A DNA stretch of 47,615 nucleotides from Gammaproteobacteria bacterium (GTDB lineage Bacteria > Pseudomonadota > Gammaproteobacteria > JAADJB01): positions 1 through 47,615 of the forward strand of contig JAADJB010000034.1 of assembly GCA_013151035.1 (NCBI GenBank), written 5' to 3'. The stretch's first letter is position 1, and every line of letters begins with the position of its first letter. Below are positions 1,205 through 47,615 of this stretch, one piece after another. Made by a program: the position numbers and the translations under genes. Under the pieces are notes generated by a model, which made no database searches, was not told the origin of the DNA, and saw nothing but the letters and a program-made list of their open reading frames with translations.

Positions 1205-1657
1205 TTACTGCTGCGTCACACCCAACGCCTTCCATACCACTGGATCATCAGTCATATAAAAAACAGGCTCCATTTTTCTCAATTCAATAACATCTGTTAT
1301 TTCATTTATTGTTACAACTTTATATCGTGGATAGCCCCTTGGAAATCCTTCAAGTTGATCTTTCAACCACATAGTTCTAATTCCAGGTTGATCCTCTGTT
1401 GTCACCGTATATTCTTTAATGCTTAATATTTTTCCTGACTTATTTAACGCAAACACTGCTTTTCCACCACTAAAAGTACTATACAAGTCCATCTTCACAG
1501 ATAACTCTGATCGCATGGTGTCTTGTGATAAATGAAACCACCGCGGTAATCTCGATTCATCTGCAAGCTCAAAACTTGATTCAAGACACCCGGAAAGATT
1601 GATTAAAAAAACTGATAACATCAATCTTAATAAAAAAAATTTATTGACGGATGCCAA
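1205..1657 (-). CDS. Small lipoprotein, paralog 1 of 4 (candidate immunity protein)
   Basis: This 150-residue lipoprotein has a type II signal with lipobox LSGC (Cys24). The residue after Cys is Leu, not Asp, so outer-membrane anchoring facing the periplasm is expected. After the Cys all four paralogs share ESSF/EARF-like starts, a SRLPRWF motif, a YY/YS-FNL beta core, and an end near VFYMTDDPVVWKALGV. The start overlaps the end of paralog 2 by 17 bp, so the two are co-transcribed. No named family is recognised. The proposed role, protection against the phospholipase-like tail of the Rhs protein encoded upstream, is inferred from order, location and paralogy. Confidence 0.8.
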   Translation of the reverse strand: MASVNKFFLLRLMLSVFLINLSGCLESSFELADESRLPRWFHLSQDTMRSELSVKMDLYSTFSGGKAVFALNKSGKILSIKEYTVTTEDQPGIRTMWLKDQLEGFPRGYPRYKVVTINEITDVIELRKMEPVFYMTDDPVVWKALGVTQQ

Positions 1658-2069
1658 ATTCTTCCAAAATAGCCGGTTCGTTAGTCATATGAAAAATATT
1701 ACTTCTCTCTCGATGCTCAATAACATCAGTTACACCATCAACAATAACAATCTCATACATCGGATAATTTTCCGGTGAACCTTCCGGTGGATTTTTAAGC
1801 TGGAGAGGATAAATGCCCATTTCTCCTTTTACTTTTTTAAGCCTCGTACCATTATCACCATACAATTTAAAAACCGCTTCTCCGCCACTAGATTTAATAT
1901 AGTAATCAACTGTTACCCTAAGTTCATCTCGTGACATACCTTCTGGTATATCAAACCATTTTGGCAGTCTACTTTCAGAGCTGAGTTCAAACCTTGCTTC
2001 CACACATCCTGATAAGTTACAGGATAAAACAACAATTAAAACCGCTAATGTAAAAAAATGCTTTAACAT
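1641..2069 (-). CDS. Small lipoprotein, paralog 2 of 4 (candidate immunity protein)
   Basis: This 142-residue lipoprotein has lipobox LSGC (Cys22). It shares with its neighbours the SRLPKWFDIPEG segment, the DYYIKSSGGEAVF core, a PPEGSPENYPMYEIV segment and the C-terminal HMTNEPAILEEFGI ending. It is the most divergent of the four at the C-terminus, where the conserved Trp of DPAVWK is lost. It overlaps paralog 1 by 17 bp and sits 75 bp downstream of paralog 3. As for the others, the family is unknown and the immunity role is an inference. Confidence 0.8.
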   Translation of the reverse strand: MLKHFFTLAVLIVVLSCNLSGCVEARFELSSESRLPKWFDIPEGMSRDELRVTVDYYIKSSGGEAVFKLYGDNGTRLKKVKGEMGIYPLQLKNPPEGSPENYPMYEIVIVDGVTDVIEHRERSNIFHMTNEPAILEEFGIRQ

Positions 2070-2144
2070 AATTGTCTCTTTATCCCGCTAAAGTTAAAAA
2101 GCACTATTGCATCGTTAACAACTAAAAACAATAAATGTCCATTA

Positions 2145-2579
2145 TTATCTCTGCTCTACTCCCAACGTCTTCCATACCGCTGGGTCATCCGTAATATAAA
2201 AAACAGACTCCATTTTTCTGTGTTCAATTATCTCGGTAATTCCATTAATTGTAATTACTTGATACATGGGATAATGCTTAGGATACCCTGCTGGTGGATT
2301 TTTCAATTTAAGCGGCCCATTTTTCAATGTATCACCCGATAGTTTTTCTCGGATAAATGTTTTTTCCTGAAGAGCCAAAAAATTAAAAACAGCCTCACCA
2401 TCTGTATAGTAATCAAGCGTTACCTTCACATCACTCCGGGATACTCCTTCAGGAATTGAAAACCATCGTGGCAGCCTTGATTCATCCGATAAATCAAAGC
2501 TTGATTCAAGACACCCCGTTAAAATCAATGCCAAATATACAATAACTATCCTTGATAATATTTTCATATAACTACTCAT
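2145..2579 (-). CDS. Small lipoprotein, paralog 3 of 4 (candidate immunity protein)
   Basis: This 144-residue lipoprotein has lipobox LTGC (Cys23); Met5 is an alternative start. The core motifs are SRLPRWFSIPEGVSR, YYTDGEAVFNF and a C-terminal third (YPKHYPMYQVITINGI... to VFYITD) that is identical in protein sequence to paralog 4, while the N-terminal halves differ clearly. The nucleotide sequence is also nearly identical there (about 2190-2310 versus 3090-3225), pointing to recent duplication or gene conversion. The palindromic element at 2591-2722 lies immediately upstream, as it does for paralog 4. Confidence 0.82.
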   Translation of the reverse strand: MSSYMKILSRIVIVYLALILTGCLESSFDLSDESRLPRWFSIPEGVSRSDVKVTLDYYTDGEAVFNFLALQEKTFIREKLSGDTLKNGPLKLKNPPAGYPKHYPMYQVITINGITEIIEHRKMESVFYITDDPAVWKTLGVEQR

Positions 2580-2590
2580 TACTGCTCTGT

Positions 2591-2722
2591 TAACTCAAGA
2601 GACAGGGATTGCGCTTCTCTATCAGAGACCCTTGCCCGCATGGACGCGGGCATGGAGCCTACACGGATGTATTCACGGCGTGTCTCTGGTAGAGAAGCGT
2701 GATTCATGTCTCGAACTTACCA
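2591..2722. repeat. 132-bp imperfect palindromic element, copy 1
   Basis: Nearly the whole element is self-complementary: the left arm (CGCTTCTCTATCAGAGAC, 2612-2629) matches the right arm (GTCTCTGGTAGAGAAGCG, 2682-2699) and weaker pairing extends to both outer ends. The centre holds a 6-bp hairpin (GCCCGC/GCGGGC). Copy 2 (3481-3612) has a centre of about 60 bp that is almost identical, but arms of different sequence that are still complementary to each other. It lies directly before the start of lipoprotein paralog 3. It may be a small non-autonomous mobile palindrome or a structured RNA. Confidence 0.75.
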
Positions 2723-2760
2723 GGCATATTTTTTCGATGAATATCATATTATTATATTGA

Positions 2761-3054
2761 TTAACTAAACCCGGAAATAGACCACAAAATCACAGCTAAA
2801 AACCCCTCCAACCAGGGTAACAATAATAATATAAATGAGGGTAGACAATACCAAAACCACCGCTGTTTCCAACCCTGTTGATAAATCACATAACTAAAAC
2901 ACGCAAATCACAATAACAGCAAGACAAGCAGATAAAACAATCGATATTCAAGCTGCCAGGTATATTGCGGCCAGAGATAGATCAGACCTGCGAATAGATA
3001 ACAGCCCAGGCACAACAGCCATGATGATCCATTGCTTTTTACTTGAAGAACCAT
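2761..3054 (-). pseudogene. Broken small membrane-protein gene (in-frame TGA)
   Basis: A start codon at 3054, one base past the stop of lipoprotein paralog 4 and with an AGGAG site five bases upstream, opens a hydrophobic frame (MVLQVKSNGSSWLLCLGCYL...). It runs 48 codons to a TGA at 2908-2910. The same frame then stays open for another 48 codons of similar Trp-rich hydrophobic sequence (FACFSYVIYQQGWKQRWFWY...LWSISGFS) to TAA at 2761-2763. Read through, it would be about 97 residues with three to four membrane segments. I do not recognise the family. Either the gene is decayed by one nonsense mutation or the first half is a 48-residue membrane peptide. No hairpin typical of a selenocysteine signal is evident after the TGA. 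Confidence 0.6.
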
Positions 3055-3055
3055 A

Positions 3056-3475
3056 TTACTCCTGCACCACACCCAACGCCTTCCACACCGCTGGGGCATC
3101 CGTAATATAAAAAACAGACTCCATTTTTCTGTGTTCAATTATCTCAGTAATTCCATTAATTGTAATTACTTGATACATAGGATAATGCTTAGGGTACCCT
3201 GTTGGTGAATTTTTCAATTTAAGCGGTATCCTGGAAATATCAGATCGTAATTTAGATAATTCATTCCCATCCTTCCCATATAATGTAAAAATCACTTCCG
3301 CTTCCCATGGATTAAGGTAATAGTCCATAGTTAACTTCAACTCCTCACGAGAAACATTACTGTTAACATGAAACCAACCGGGAAGCCGAGAACCCAATGA
3401 CAATGTAAAACTTGACTCTTTGCATCCGAAAATACTAATAGCTAATATAAAAACAACAAACGCCTTCATTACCAT
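3056..3475 (-). CDS. Small lipoprotein, paralog 4 of 4, nearest the Rhs gene (candidate immunity protein)
   Basis: This 139-residue lipoprotein has lipobox IFGC (Cys18; Lys follows). It has the shared SRLPGWFHVNSNVSREEL segment, the DYYLNPWEAEVIFTLYG core, and the C-terminal third identical to that of paralog 3. It is the first gene downstream of the giant Rhs-type gene (208 bp away), the place where cognate immunity genes of polymorphic toxins normally sit, with one palindromic element between them. Immunity lipoproteins in tandem copies are known for phospholipase effectors of type VI secretion systems (Tle/Tli pairs). The analogy supports, but does not prove, the role here. Confidence 0.82.
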   Translation of the reverse strand: MVMKAFVVFILAISIFGCKESSFTLSLGSRLPGWFHVNSNVSREELKLTMDYYLNPWEAEVIFTLYGKDGNELSKLRSDISRIPLKLKNSPTGYPKHYPMYQVITINGITEIIEHRKMESVFYITDAPAVWKALGVVQE

Positions 3476-3480
3476 CTCAC

Positions 3481-3612
3481 TAACTCAAGAGGGATGCATT
3501 GCTCTCCTCTAACAGAGACCGTTGCCCGCATGGACGCGGGCATGGAGCCTACACGGATGTATTCACGGCGTGTCTCAGTTAGAGGAGAGTGATTCATATC
3601 TCGATCTCACCA
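3481..3612. repeat. 132-bp imperfect palindromic element, copy 2
   Basis: It has the same architecture as 2591-2722. The inner arms GCTCTCCTCTAACAGAGAC (3501-3519) and GTCTCAGTTAGAGGAGAGT (3572-3590) pair with each other, although they differ from the arms of copy 1. The centre, with the GCCCGC/GCGGGC hairpin, is almost unchanged. It lies between the Rhs-type gene and lipoprotein paralog 4, immediately before the latter's start. Confidence 0.75.
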
Positions 3613-3683: not shown

Positions 3684-6600
3684 CTACTGAAAAAAACCAC
3701 TATTGCATTTATTACAAGACTTGGAACCACCCAAACCAGAAGATATCCATGATGATAAATTACAGGAATTATTATCGTAACAAACATCATGCTTCTGACA
3801 TCGCCCTGAAAAACATGAATCACCAATAGGTCCTAATGGCCACGGGAGAGAACATTTTCCGCCATCTTGGGAGGTATAACCATCCCATACATTCCCATTA
3901 TCATCACTAATCAAATCCCCCGCCTCAGACACATAAAGGAAGCTCCAAAGAAGAATAACTCCCGTAACAGGATCAACCTCTCCTGTAGGGTCGATATGCA
4001 TAAGCGGATTATTATCAACATAGTTATAACTATGGTTTAAATAAGCAATACCTTTACTTGCAGGTATTGCAATCCCTGTCATAGTTGCAACTTGTCGCAT
4101 GGGATCAGAAAAATCAAGCGATTGGCCGCGCGGATCAGCTGTCAAATAGCGACCTGATTCAGGTTCATAATAACGATAATGGTTATAGTGCAGAGCGGTC
4201 TCCGCATCAAAATACTGCCCCGGATAACGCAAATTACAGATGGGTGCATTCACCGAAAAATCATTGACAATAGCTTCTCCAAAAGCCCAATAATCTATCC
4301 GTGATACTACGTTGGCCTGTTCATCCGTCAACACAAGCGGGGCACCAATATGATTGGTATGGATATAATAAATCGAGCCATAAGAATTTGTTGCGGCATG
4401 AACGCTGTCTGGCATCAACCATGAAAGTGATGATGACACCCAATCCTTAACTCTGGACAGATCCAGCAGGCGTGTTGTTAATAACAGCATATCCTGTAGA
4501 TCAATCACCCCATCGAGGTTGATATCAGCATGCAGATAATCGCTTTTGTCCGGCACACGATCACTCATAATAATATCGACCAGCAACAGATAATCACCCA
4601 CATCAATACTGGCATTACCATTCATATCACCATCACCGGGATATTGATTACCCGCTAATGGATTGGTGCCCTGATCAATCTCCAGACCGTCATTAAACCC
4701 GTCCTGGTCGCTATCTTCCTGATTAACATCGGAGCCAATAACAAACCATTCATCATTATTTGAAACACTATCATGGTCATTATCGGCAAATACCATCACT
4801 GTTTGTTCATTTACATCATCCAGACCATTGGCATCGCTATCAACCTGATACTGCGCCAACAGGCGATCACCCACATAGATATATTCACGCAATACCCGTC
4901 CCCATAAATCAGCCTCTGCTACCAGATGGCCAGCCGGATCATAAAAATATTGATAACCATCAGCCCCAGACAGGGTCTTTTTAACACGCTGCCCCATAGC
5001 GTTATAGGCATATTCAACGATCAGACCACCGGCCTGATACACCTCACGCAACTGGGCATGAGCGTTATACAAAAAATCATACTGCGTATTATTCAACTGA
5101 TTACCATAGGCATCATAACTAACCGCAATACCATCAATAAAAAGCAGATGATTGCTATCGTTTGCATACGCAAGCGATTGAACAGACTCTCCTAACCCAT
5201 CTTTAACGGTTAAACGATTCCCCGATTGATCATAGCCATAGACACGCTGACCCAGGCGGGTCTGCTCTGATAGTAACCGACTCAATCCATCATATTGATA
5301 TTCATCGATGGTTCCCTGCAACAAGTTCGATTGAACTAAAATATGACCGTTCGCATCATAGCGATCATACTGTTTGTTATACACGCTTGATAATTGCTCA
5401 GATACCACTCGATAGGCCCTATCATAATCACGTTGCATCAATAGACCATTGCCATATTTAACCTGACGAATACCACCGTAGGGGATATGCTGAATCGAAT
5501 AAGCCAGAACTTCCTGACCCGCACCCCGATCAACTGATACCGAGCTAACCTGCCCACTCATATCATAGCTATAAAAAACGATAAGCCCGGAAGGATAGAC
5601 TGATTTAATCAAGCGATCGGCATCATCGTAATAGTAATAAAGGCCTTGGTACTGACTCACCCGACCCAGGGAATCATACTGATAAAACAGACTATTCCCT
5701 GCCTGAACAATGCGACACAAACGACCCTGCCCATTTTCACACTCATCATAGATATAAACAATGTCGTCACTAATACCCATGGCATCAACCTGTATCAGAC
5801 GATTACGCACATCATATAAATAAGTAATCTCATCACCTTGCACATCCATTCCCAGCACACGATTACCCGCCTCATCATATCGCCATAAATGATCACCTTT
5901 ATCAGCTGATTTATCCTCCAGCAGATTACCCAGATCATCATAAACCCGTGTAGTCATAACCTGTCGTTCAGGCGTTGACAACGTCCGTCTGCTACCAACA
6001 TCATAGCGATACTCACGCTCTGCATAAGGGATTAGCCGATCATCCCCTGCTAGGATCGTTTCACCTACTAACTGTTGTAGCAAATCATAACGATATACAC
6101 GTTCCAGATTATTCCCATCAATCGTTTTTTCAAGTAAGCCAAGTGAATCATATGAAAAGGATTTTATCTCATTCTCCTGTGTACGCTGTAGCACCTGATT
6201 AACCCGATTATAGGCATACGATAACTGTTTCCATTGCCTTCCATCAGAATCATTAACCGTCAATACAGTGCGATTACCTTCTTCATCCAACACATAATCA
6301 ATACGCTCTCCGGCATCATTACTTAACCCTGTCAATCGTCGGGCATCATCATAGCTAAAATAAATACTGCTCTGTGATGGACTCTCATAGGAAAATTCAA
6401 TCGATTTAACCTCACCTGTAGCCAGATAACGCCAACGAGTCTTACGCATATTACCTGCCGTTCTTTCTATCAATAACTCAAGACGGTCGCTTAATAATGA
6501 ATAACGATATTCCAGTGCCAGGCCATTCGTCCGTTTTTCGGATAACAACTGACCTGATGCGGTATATTGAATGTCATCCCTCAGCAACATCCCATCCTCG

Positions 6601-8804
6601 GCAATTACCCGACGTAGACGCGCCCGGTTATTCCCGACAATCTCATCGTCCGGATAATATTCAAAATAGCGTATATCTGTAACATCTGTACGTGCCCCAT
6701 CGCGTTGACTGACCTGATGCAAAGGCCCCTGATATTGCGCACTATAATGGCGTTGAACGATTTCTCCCTGCGGGGTAAAACCTGTTACGCCCCATGCCAG
6801 GAGATTGGCATAGTCATCATAATCATATTGCAGCACCCGACGCGCTGATGAATCCAGCTGATTAACCGATGGCTCCGAGCGCATGCCTAGCCGCTGAAAG
6901 AAACGTCTATCATATTGATAATCTGTACGCCGTGACTGAGCAGAACCTGCCGCCTCAATTTGATAACCGGGATTACCATGCGCATCAAACCCACCCCGAG
7001 TTAGCAACACACCACGCCCATCACGAATACCCACAATATTATTACTTACATCATAGTCATAATCCCTGACTGTCCCATCACAGGACTGACAGGCCTGTCC
7101 TTCGATATGATTAACAACAAAGATACCGTTACGCCGTTCCGTACCATATTCACTGCGATAGCCCCTTGCATTAGTCACATAACGCACACCATCAGCACGG
7201 TATTCAATATCAATACGATCAGCATTTTGTGCATGATAGCTCGATATAACCCGACCCACCGAATCATAGTCATACCAGGAAAAACGAAGATCACGTTGAT
7301 CGGTAATACCGGTCAGGGCACTCGGAAACAAATTATTCTCATAATGATATTGTTTCACCGTAGCATCAGGATAGCGTAAAAATTGCAGATTATTAATTGC
7401 ATCATATTCAAATGACCAGGCACGTTGCGTCTTGTCCTGAATCATGGAGGGTCGTCCCTGTTGGTCATAGCTGATCACCATGAAAAACCCCAGGTTGTTC
7501 TCTACCCGCAATAACTGACCATTAGCCGAATAATTCAGTGACTGATAATTTCCTTTAATATCCACAATGAGGATCAAACGCCCGAAATAATCATAATATT
7601 CACGACTATCATTCTCTCGATAAAGCACCCAACCCATCAGATTACCCGCAGCACTCACCTGTGCCATAAGTTTGCCAATAAAACCGGTATCATTGACCCA
7701 TTCATCATCCGGTTGTTGATGAAACAGCACTTGCTTACCATCAGCCCGTGTCAATACTACCCTTGCACCGGCAGCCGCTACTTCATAAGGCAAACCCGTT
7801 GTTGCCATACGCACAGGGAAATCACCCCAAACCTTGTCACTAATACCATAGCGTATCTGACAACGCCCATTATCCAGTAAGACTGCTGACGATTCAGTAG
7901 CCCAGGCTAATGAGTAACCGGCCTTGATCTGACCCCAACCATTAATACAGGCCGCCTCTGCGGTATCAAACTTAAGATCATTTTTTGCGGGAAAGCGTTC
8001 TTGTTCAGTGCTGGAGGCGAGTGCTATTGACGAGGAAAAGGAATGCCTCCAACCTTGCCCAAGACCACGATCAACATCATCCATCTTATTATAAAAAAGA
8101 TTAAACGACATTGCAGCAGGGCCATAACTCATCCTGATCGTTTCTTGATGAAATTTATTCCCGCTAGCTGGATTAACCGGGTTACCGATAAACCCGCTCC
8201 CTTTCGGGCAACGACCCAGACTCTCTCCCGCAGGTTCTAATACATCTTTTGCTAACAAATAATACTGCTGTTTACAAAGACTACGCCTCGCCTCATCCAT
8301 CCCCCACTCAGAACCGGGTGGACAATAAGACCAATTAACCTTTATAAAGTTATGAACGACTGAAGACTTAACTATATCGCAACCAGGGTCATCTGGACGA
8401 TTGCCCATATAAGTAAAATAGCTTGCATCATAGGCTATCTCTTGTATGCGTAATTTCCCCCACACATCATCAAAGCTTATCCCCAACGACTCCCAGGCCT
8501 TACATGAATACGAGAAATCTATGAAGTTAAAAATTGTTGCTGAACGAGAGGAGGCAGAAAAACCGGTCGACCCATCATCGCTGATATCACATAACCCACT
8601 TAAGGATAGATCATAAGCCTTGTAGGCACTCACAGCCTCCCCCCTTGACTCAAAACAACCGATAGACGGCCAATAATTGCTATGTGAATAATAATCCTTT
8701 GTTTTCAGCATAGGCACCTCGACATAAGCCGATAGATCAACCGTAAAGATCATTAAACCCATCATTAAAGAATAATGAACAAAATAAAAAACATCCTTGT
8801 ACAT
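3684..8804 (-). CDS. Secreted Rhs/YD-repeat protein with TSP3- and dockerin-like insertions and a phospholipase A2-like C-terminal tip
   Basis: This is a 1706-residue protein from ATG 8804, chosen for its AAGGA site and a plausible signal peptide ([20 protein letters not shown]...); the open frame extends 55 codons further without signal or ribosome site. Around residue 205 is the Rhs opening motif [11 protein letters not shown], followed by about 1100 residues of YD repeats (YxYDxxGN...). Residues about 1330-1388 carry Asp-rich TSP3-like repeats ([12 protein letters not shown]). Residues about 1391-1448 hold two dockerin-type EF-hand-like repeats ([24 protein letters not shown]). The conserved Rhs core ([14 protein letters not shown] to YLTADP) ends with DPTG at 1608. 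The 98-residue tail is Cys-rich and contains CQKHDVCY (His1672, Asp1673), like the catalytic His/Ca-binding Asp of phospholipase A2. It is short for a full PLA2 domain. The toxin role is inferred; Sec export rather than type VI loading is suggested. Confidence 0.85.
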
Positions 8805-8927
8805 AATGCATTCCTTTGCATAATTCTCGTCACAAGCTTCTCCCTGCCTGGTATAACTTAACCAACAAGAGTCGCTTGAACAATCATCATATCGCTCTTT
8901 ATTTTGTAAGAAAAATCTTAAGTTTTC

Positions 8928-8936
8928 TGGTAGAAT
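8928..8936 (+). promoter_or_regulatory. Extended -10 promoter of the SulP gene
   Basis: TGG followed by TAGAAT (8931-8936) fits an extended -10 element. It lies 38 bp upstream of the ATG at 8975, with no good -35 hexamer at the standard distance. The 170-bp gap to the divergent Rhs-type gene must hold both promoters; I cannot place the minus-strand one. Confidence 0.5.
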
Positions 8937-8974
8937 ACGCGCCTTTCCATGATTCCATATAAAGAGCACATGCT

Positions 8975-47534: not shown

Positions 47535-47615
47535 GTAGAGTAAGAAGCAGGACGTAGTCGCACTATTTCCCTGCTTCTCCTCCCCGAACCGTACGTGCAC
47601 CTTTCAGCGCATACG
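47535..47615 (-). mobile_element. 3' end of a group II intron (domains V and VI), continuing beyond the window
   Basis: On the minus strand from the window edge, CGTATGCGCTGAAAGGTGCA followed by CGTACGG folds as domain V: CGTA/TACG and TGC/GCA stems, a 2-nt CG bulge and a GAAA loop. Next, GAAGCAGG pairs with CCTGCTTC as a domain VI hairpin, followed by TTACTCTAC, with an A seven bases from the end as the likely branch point and AC as the terminus. The sequence then passes directly into the IS3 transposase frame at 47534. The intron-encoded reverse transcriptase would lie outside. Confidence 0.75.

Follow-up and report, generated by a model that had tools for sequence, protein, structure and literature searches.

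The window analyzed here is a 47,615-nt stretch of gammaproteobacterial DNA. Four small paralogous lipoprotein genes lie in a row (1205–3475, − strand) beside the gene for a 1761-aa RHS/YD-repeat protein with dockerin and TSP3 repeats (3684–8969, − strand). The C-terminus of the RHS protein is cysteine-rich, and its C-KHDVCY motif resembles phospholipase A2 when compared by eye. The four lipoproteins show no significant Pfam family and are possibly duplicated immunity proteins. A ParE/Phd-YefM-type toxin–antitoxin pair is located at 571–1127 (− strand), and a match to a group II intron RNA family sits at the window edge (47535–47615, − strand).

Two palindromes, at 2599–2712 and 3489–3602, adjoin two of the lipoprotein genes. 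Each consists of a 31-nt left arm, a 52-nt center, and a 31-nt right arm. The original prediction described two palindromes of 132 bp with near-identical centers and arms that differ between the copies yet still pair. The palindromes are real: center identity between the copies is 98% and arm identity 81%, and the arms are 84 and 81% complementary, respectively. Their size, however, is 114 bp each, and the figure of 132 bp takes in flanking sequence. The features of the locus are as follows:

2145..2579, − strand: lipoprotein gene adjoining copy 1; a neighbor, outside the element
2577..2593, + strand: copy 1, left terminal repeat, CATTACTGCTCTGTTAA, diverged from CACTGCTGTCCCGTTAA, which is the family terminal repeat and the identical end of an IS4 relic
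2599..2629, + strand: copy 1, stem P1, left arm
2630..2655, + strand: copy 1, hairpin P2, with loop AUGGAC at 2640–2645, of the CsrA-type ANGGA
2657..2679, + strand: copy 1, hairpin P3, GCC-UACA-CGGA-UGUA-UUCAC-GGC, fitting [AU]CANGGANG[UA]
2682..2712, + strand: copy 1, stem P1, right arm
3056..3475, − strand: lipoprotein gene adjoining copy 2; a neighbor, outside the element
3489..3519, + strand: copy 2, stem P1, left arm
3520..3545, + strand: copy 2, hairpin P2, with loop AUGGAC at 3530–3535
3547..3569, + strand: copy 2, hairpin P3, with loop CGGA at 3554–3557
3572..3602, + strand: copy 2, stem P1, right arm

The left terminal repeat of copy 1 overlaps the predicted start codon of the lipoprotein gene. 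On the + strand, the two palindromes fold with energies of −70 and −57 kcal/mol (z = −8.5 and −5.6), and none of 200 shuffles folded equally well. Eight arm pairs differ between the two copies; three of them are clean compensatory changes (GC to TA, TA to CG, and TG to AT), and two lose their pairing in copy 2. Neither palindrome matches an Rfam family at its gathering score.

The conserved center, to which the original prediction drew attention, recurs throughout the 2.4-Mb genome of origin. A search with copy 1 gave 45 matches and the 25-nt core pattern 66, with none for the reversed-pattern control; 76 distinct places were extracted, and we count about 75 copies, dispersed over many contigs. 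Unrelated loci carry copies that are up to 97% alike. Sixty-six copies align without gaps, each exactly 114 bp long. In this alignment, 95.5% of the pair cells hold standard pairs, compared with 35–50% in slid controls, and compensatory double changes occur at 39 of the 47 fold pairs, including 30 of the 31 in the long stem P1. The predicted covariation of the arms thus holds across the family.

Mispairs within the fold are strongly asymmetric. A first count gave 135 G·T against 30 A·C, and a stricter one gave 87 to 15 in the same genome and 101 to 15 in other genomes. Because G·T pairs outnumber A·C pairs by about 6:1, we assign the + strand as the folding strand, and the bias points to this strand folding as a single strand, whether RNA or DNA. 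Simple arm-to-arm correction would not produce such a bias, nor would a symmetric mutation process. Judged by covariation and the G·T excess together, the fold is under selection, as the original prediction had proposed, and on one strand. In 49 copies, the folding strand runs antisense to both neighboring genes, compared with 10 copies in which it runs sense (p = 3e-7), so that in this genome it usually lies outside the mRNA of its neighbors; in other genomes the orientation looks mixed.

The idea that element and lipoprotein gene form one cassette does not survive comparison with the other copies. Using simple longest-ORF gene calls, a lipobox was present in 2 of 51 genes downstream of copies, both of them in the window, compared with 6 of 120 background genes (Fisher p = 1). 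Elsewhere, copies adjoin housekeeping genes, among them genes for MetH-, HemE-, LpxB-, IspD-, and LspA-like proteins, as judged by their N-termini. A cassette built around Rhs genes was likewise rejected. Copies scattered in this way, without relation to lipoprotein genes, indicate a mobile palindrome, although its core is not generic. Within the window, the lipoprotein genes do adjoin the palindromes, but the claim that each palindrome stands immediately upstream of a lipoprotein start needs correction, as the genes lie on the − strand and the best-folding strand is therefore antisense to both. Tandem duplication of element plus gene is also disfavored: the two window copies are 89% identical to each other but 97 and 91% identical to their best counterparts elsewhere, and are therefore probably independent insertions.

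Some copies in the genome of origin are bounded by CACTGCTGTCCCGTTAA and its complement, forming 17-bp terminal inverted repeats around a unit of 156–212 bp. Direct repeats of 6–11 bp flank four of eight complete copies (p = 0.0005 against shuffled flanks). The element is thus a multicopy unit with terminal inverted repeats and target duplications that contains no gene, the characteristic features of a MITE. The same genome holds a relic of an IS4-type transposase (DUF4372, E = 1.3e-22), which is interrupted and contains one stop. The 17-bp element end plus a G, CACTGCTGTCCCGTTAAG, precedes the start of the relic gene, so that a transposase with matching ends, suggested as something to look for in the original prediction, is indeed present in decayed form. 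The second end of the relic was not found, nor was an empty site for any copy in this genome, and no other carrier tested encodes a DUF4372 transposase. That the element is a mobile fold is close to certain, and the shared ends suggest that an IS4-family transposase, since decayed, would have moved the copies in this genome by acting on their terminal repeats.

A second arrangement occurs in genome G202, where the element around the same core measures 139 bp and its ends differ, appearing by eye to be TA-CTAAGG...CATTAG-TA. Here, the core can be inverted relative to the ends or be absent. This exchange of ends around a constant core is the main indication that the transposase probably does not bind the core. 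Solo half elements (L220–L225) consist of the left end and one arm, without the core and right end, and mostly terminate near the stem–core border, as if insertion or copying had stopped at the hairpin; two core-less palindromes (L217 and L218) have the same ends and arms. No autonomous element was found behind the solo ends, and in an empty-site comparison with the congener G095 the flank was not conserved.

The core extends far beyond a single genome. A three-way-junction model detects it in 46 of 276 sampled gammaproteobacterial genomes, a lower bound, as at most 16 candidates per genome were scored, and single genomes searched alone yielded at least 150 copies in one case and 43 in another. 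An exact pattern scan located it in Microbulbifer, Cellvibrio, Marinobacter, Marinimicrobium, Methylococcaceae, and others. In these other lineages, the arms are unrelated in sequence yet complementary, usually over 24–31 bp. We aligned 38 sequences across lineages, including the RU-2 repeat of Yersinia (PMC2759123). Pairing holds in 96.1% of its cells, both sides have changed at 26 of 30 pairs, and covariation scores 0.651, compared with 0.10–0.12 in slid controls. The consensus fold is a three-way junction formed by stem P1 and hairpins P2 and P3. P2 comprises two outer pairs, an internal mismatch, and seven inner pairs, while P3 comprises 3 bp and 4 bp with a TTYAC bulge. Stem P1 is free in sequence and fixed in pairing, and the only strongly fixed letters are those of the P2 and P3 loops and a few at the junction. 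By this distribution and conservation, the core is old and widespread. Carriage by phages or plasmids was considered and rejected: phages gave no match and viral contigs a single exact match, and the window element is absent from plasmids, some enterobacterial plasmids carrying a YPAL-like copy.

The fixed loops resemble the binding sites of CsrA/RsmA proteins. In a set of 161 copies whose selection ignored the loop letters, the apex of P3 reads CANGGANG in 158, and P2 contains ANGGA in 154, with the N free. Both hairpins show (C)ANGGA(NG), fitting the CsrA/RsmA/RsmE consensus [AU]CANGGANG[UA] (PMC6849547), and the core loops are close to the CsrA SELEX sequence RUACARGGAUGU (PMC7652899). A CsrA dimer bridges sites 10–63 nt apart, best above 18 nt (PMC7652899); in the core, the two GGA motifs are about 20 nt apart, so that ANGGA occurs in hairpin loops at a spacing within this range. 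The P2 and P3 loops may descend from one duplicated hairpin, in which case the motif match carries less weight than two independent matches would. Of the 46 element-positive genomes, 45 gave a CsrA hit (the exception being G176), as did 197 of 230 negative ones (p = 0.02), a co-occurrence that lends weak support and may follow genome size. From the loops and their spacing, we infer that the core, as RNA, would bind CsrA.

A related architecture is found in the TwoAYGGAY RNA (RF01731), in which an outer stem likewise encloses two hairpins with NGGA loops. TwoAYGGAY belongs to the clan CL00106, “Csr-Rsm protein binding” (PMC5753348), and was earlier suggested to bind CsrA (PMC4333381). Its model aligns, with both loops in register, to the strand of the element that folds, scoring 20.2 bits for window copy 2 and 30.3 bits (E = 0.0035) for the copy L128, both below the gathering cut-off of 43 bits; for a Microbulbifer copy, the best Rfam match is another family. 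By the gathering-score test, the element is a look-alike of TwoAYGGAY and not a member. Unlike the element, TwoAYGGAY has been described from human gut, gamma-proteobacteria, and Clostridiales and not as a mobile repeat. Paired GGA hairpin loops are also shared with the sponge RNAs CsrB, RsmY, and RsmZ, from which the element differs in having two sites per copy and in its many dispersed copies.

A close known relative is the YPAL/RU-2 repeat of Yersinia (167–168 bp), whose core hairpin has an AGGA loop followed by GAGCCTACATGGATGTATTTACGGCGTC (RU-2: PMC2759123, Table 1b); the 25-nt core of the element is identical to, or a few mismatches from, that of RU-2. As far as PMC2229807 and, for mobility, reviews describe it, YPAL is dispersed and intergenic with variable target duplications of 3–26 bp, and variable duplication on insertion is shared with our element (6–11 bp). 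The arms and ends, by contrast, are unrelated, and the unit of 156–212 bp with terminal repeat CACTGCTGTCCCGTTAA differs from the approximately 168 bp of YPAL/RU-2. In the papers cited here, YPAL/RU-2 is described for Yersinia and Erwinia only, and they mention neither the three-way junction nor the CsrA-type loops nor the wider family. The MITEs ERIC, NEMIS/Correia, and RUP are similar in their length of 100–200 bp, lack of genes, terminal repeats, target duplications, and long hairpin, but differ in that the three-way-junction core of the element is common to lineages with different terminal repeats. Integron attC sites were rejected, as the GTTAACT ends misfit the R'/R'' sites GTTRRRY/RYYYAAC (by eye) and the copies are dispersed and form no cassette array.

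Taken together, the family is best described as a non-autonomous MITE of the YPAL type that carries a conserved, putative CsrA-binding RNA module with two sites, a reading to which we assign a probability of roughly 0.55. The + strand, when transcribed, would form an RNA in which two CsrA/RsmA sites, spaced by about 20 nt, are offered to a single CsrA dimer, much as is supposed for TwoAYGGAY. We further infer that the element is transcribed and of some benefit; transcripts carrying it could be protected, or its many copies could titrate CsrA. The antisense bias, which weighs against the CsrA reading, might reflect the purging of sense copies, since those would bring CsrA sites into leaders, directly ahead of start codons, but this is a guess. 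More tentatively, and with somewhat less confidence than an even chance would warrant, a transposon family spanning many gammaproteobacterial families may carry a deeply conserved two-site CsrA-binding RNA that is independent of the transposase ends.

Covariation and a G·T excess fit any folding single strand, DNA as well as RNA. The core of the same mobile element could accordingly be a + strand ssDNA hairpin recognized by a recombinase, an HUH transposase, or a replication protein, with transposition selecting the copies that fold. The usual antisense placement of the folding strand in the genome of origin and the half elements of G202 that stop at the stem–core border agree with this account. 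We nevertheless consider it unlikely, since the same core sits on different ends between lineages and the letters fixed in its loops match those that a known RNA-binding protein recognizes. A Y1/HUH transposase is also unneeded, as two rich carriers (G065 and G212, at least 16 copies each) have no Y1_Tnp match. This bears equally on REP/BIME repeats with their RAYT transposases, which are likewise dispersed intergenic palindromes: the element lacks a GTAG or CGTC head at the palindrome end, no core lies beside the four Y1_Tnp loci of its own genome, and the association with Y1 transposases is weak (39 of 46 element-positive and 150 of 230 negative genomes, p = 0.009).

A cis-acting RNA element that governs the stability or RNase III processing of neighboring mRNAs, as proposed for ERIC and YPAL and without CsrA, appears similarly doubtful. 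Many copies do occupy the gap from one stop codon to the following start (median distances 21 and 37 bp), and the Yersinia sRNA family Ysr224 in Rfam matches the opposite strand of several copies (L146, L131, L132, and L149; E = 0.003–0.008). Ysr224 looks like a transcribed YPAL copy, which makes transcription of YPAL copies in Yersinia probable. However, orientation is inconsistent between genomes, and a generic hairpin would not need fixed loop letters. Least probable is a selfish or neutral MITE whose core and arms have no selected function and whose palindrome was perfected by template switching between the arms during replication. Template switching is known to correct quasi-palindromes, and a coding-free MITE requires no function; yet this process predicts Watson–Crick arms without strand bias, which the roughly sixfold excess of G·T over A·C already disfavors, and leaves the fixed loops, the junction letters, and the covarying short P2 and P3 stems across families unexplained.

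If a transposon family does carry a conserved CsrA-binding RNA independently of its ends, mobile elements would distribute CsrA sites, as decoys or leader controls, with as many as 150 or more in a single genome, and could load or rewire the Csr/Rsm network. Provided that the copies are transcribed and bound, many gammaproteobacteria would harbor a large set of CsrA targets that has so far gone unrecognized, the YPAL repeats of Yersinia among them, and transposon biology would be linked to a global RNA regulator. The extreme conservation of the YPAL core would then have an explanation, and TwoAYGGAY-like RNAs a ligand that can be tested. Should CsrA not be involved, the element is still a compact three-way-junction fold, clearly selected on one strand, whose ends differ between lineages.

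Several copies carry an additional segment within or close to the central hairpins, three in the genome of origin (L027, L084, and L252) and three in other species (L099, L118, and L108). The segment, which is common to distant species, contains another NGGA hairpin and a piece resembling GGTAGAGCAACGCAGGAGCAGTTGCCGA.
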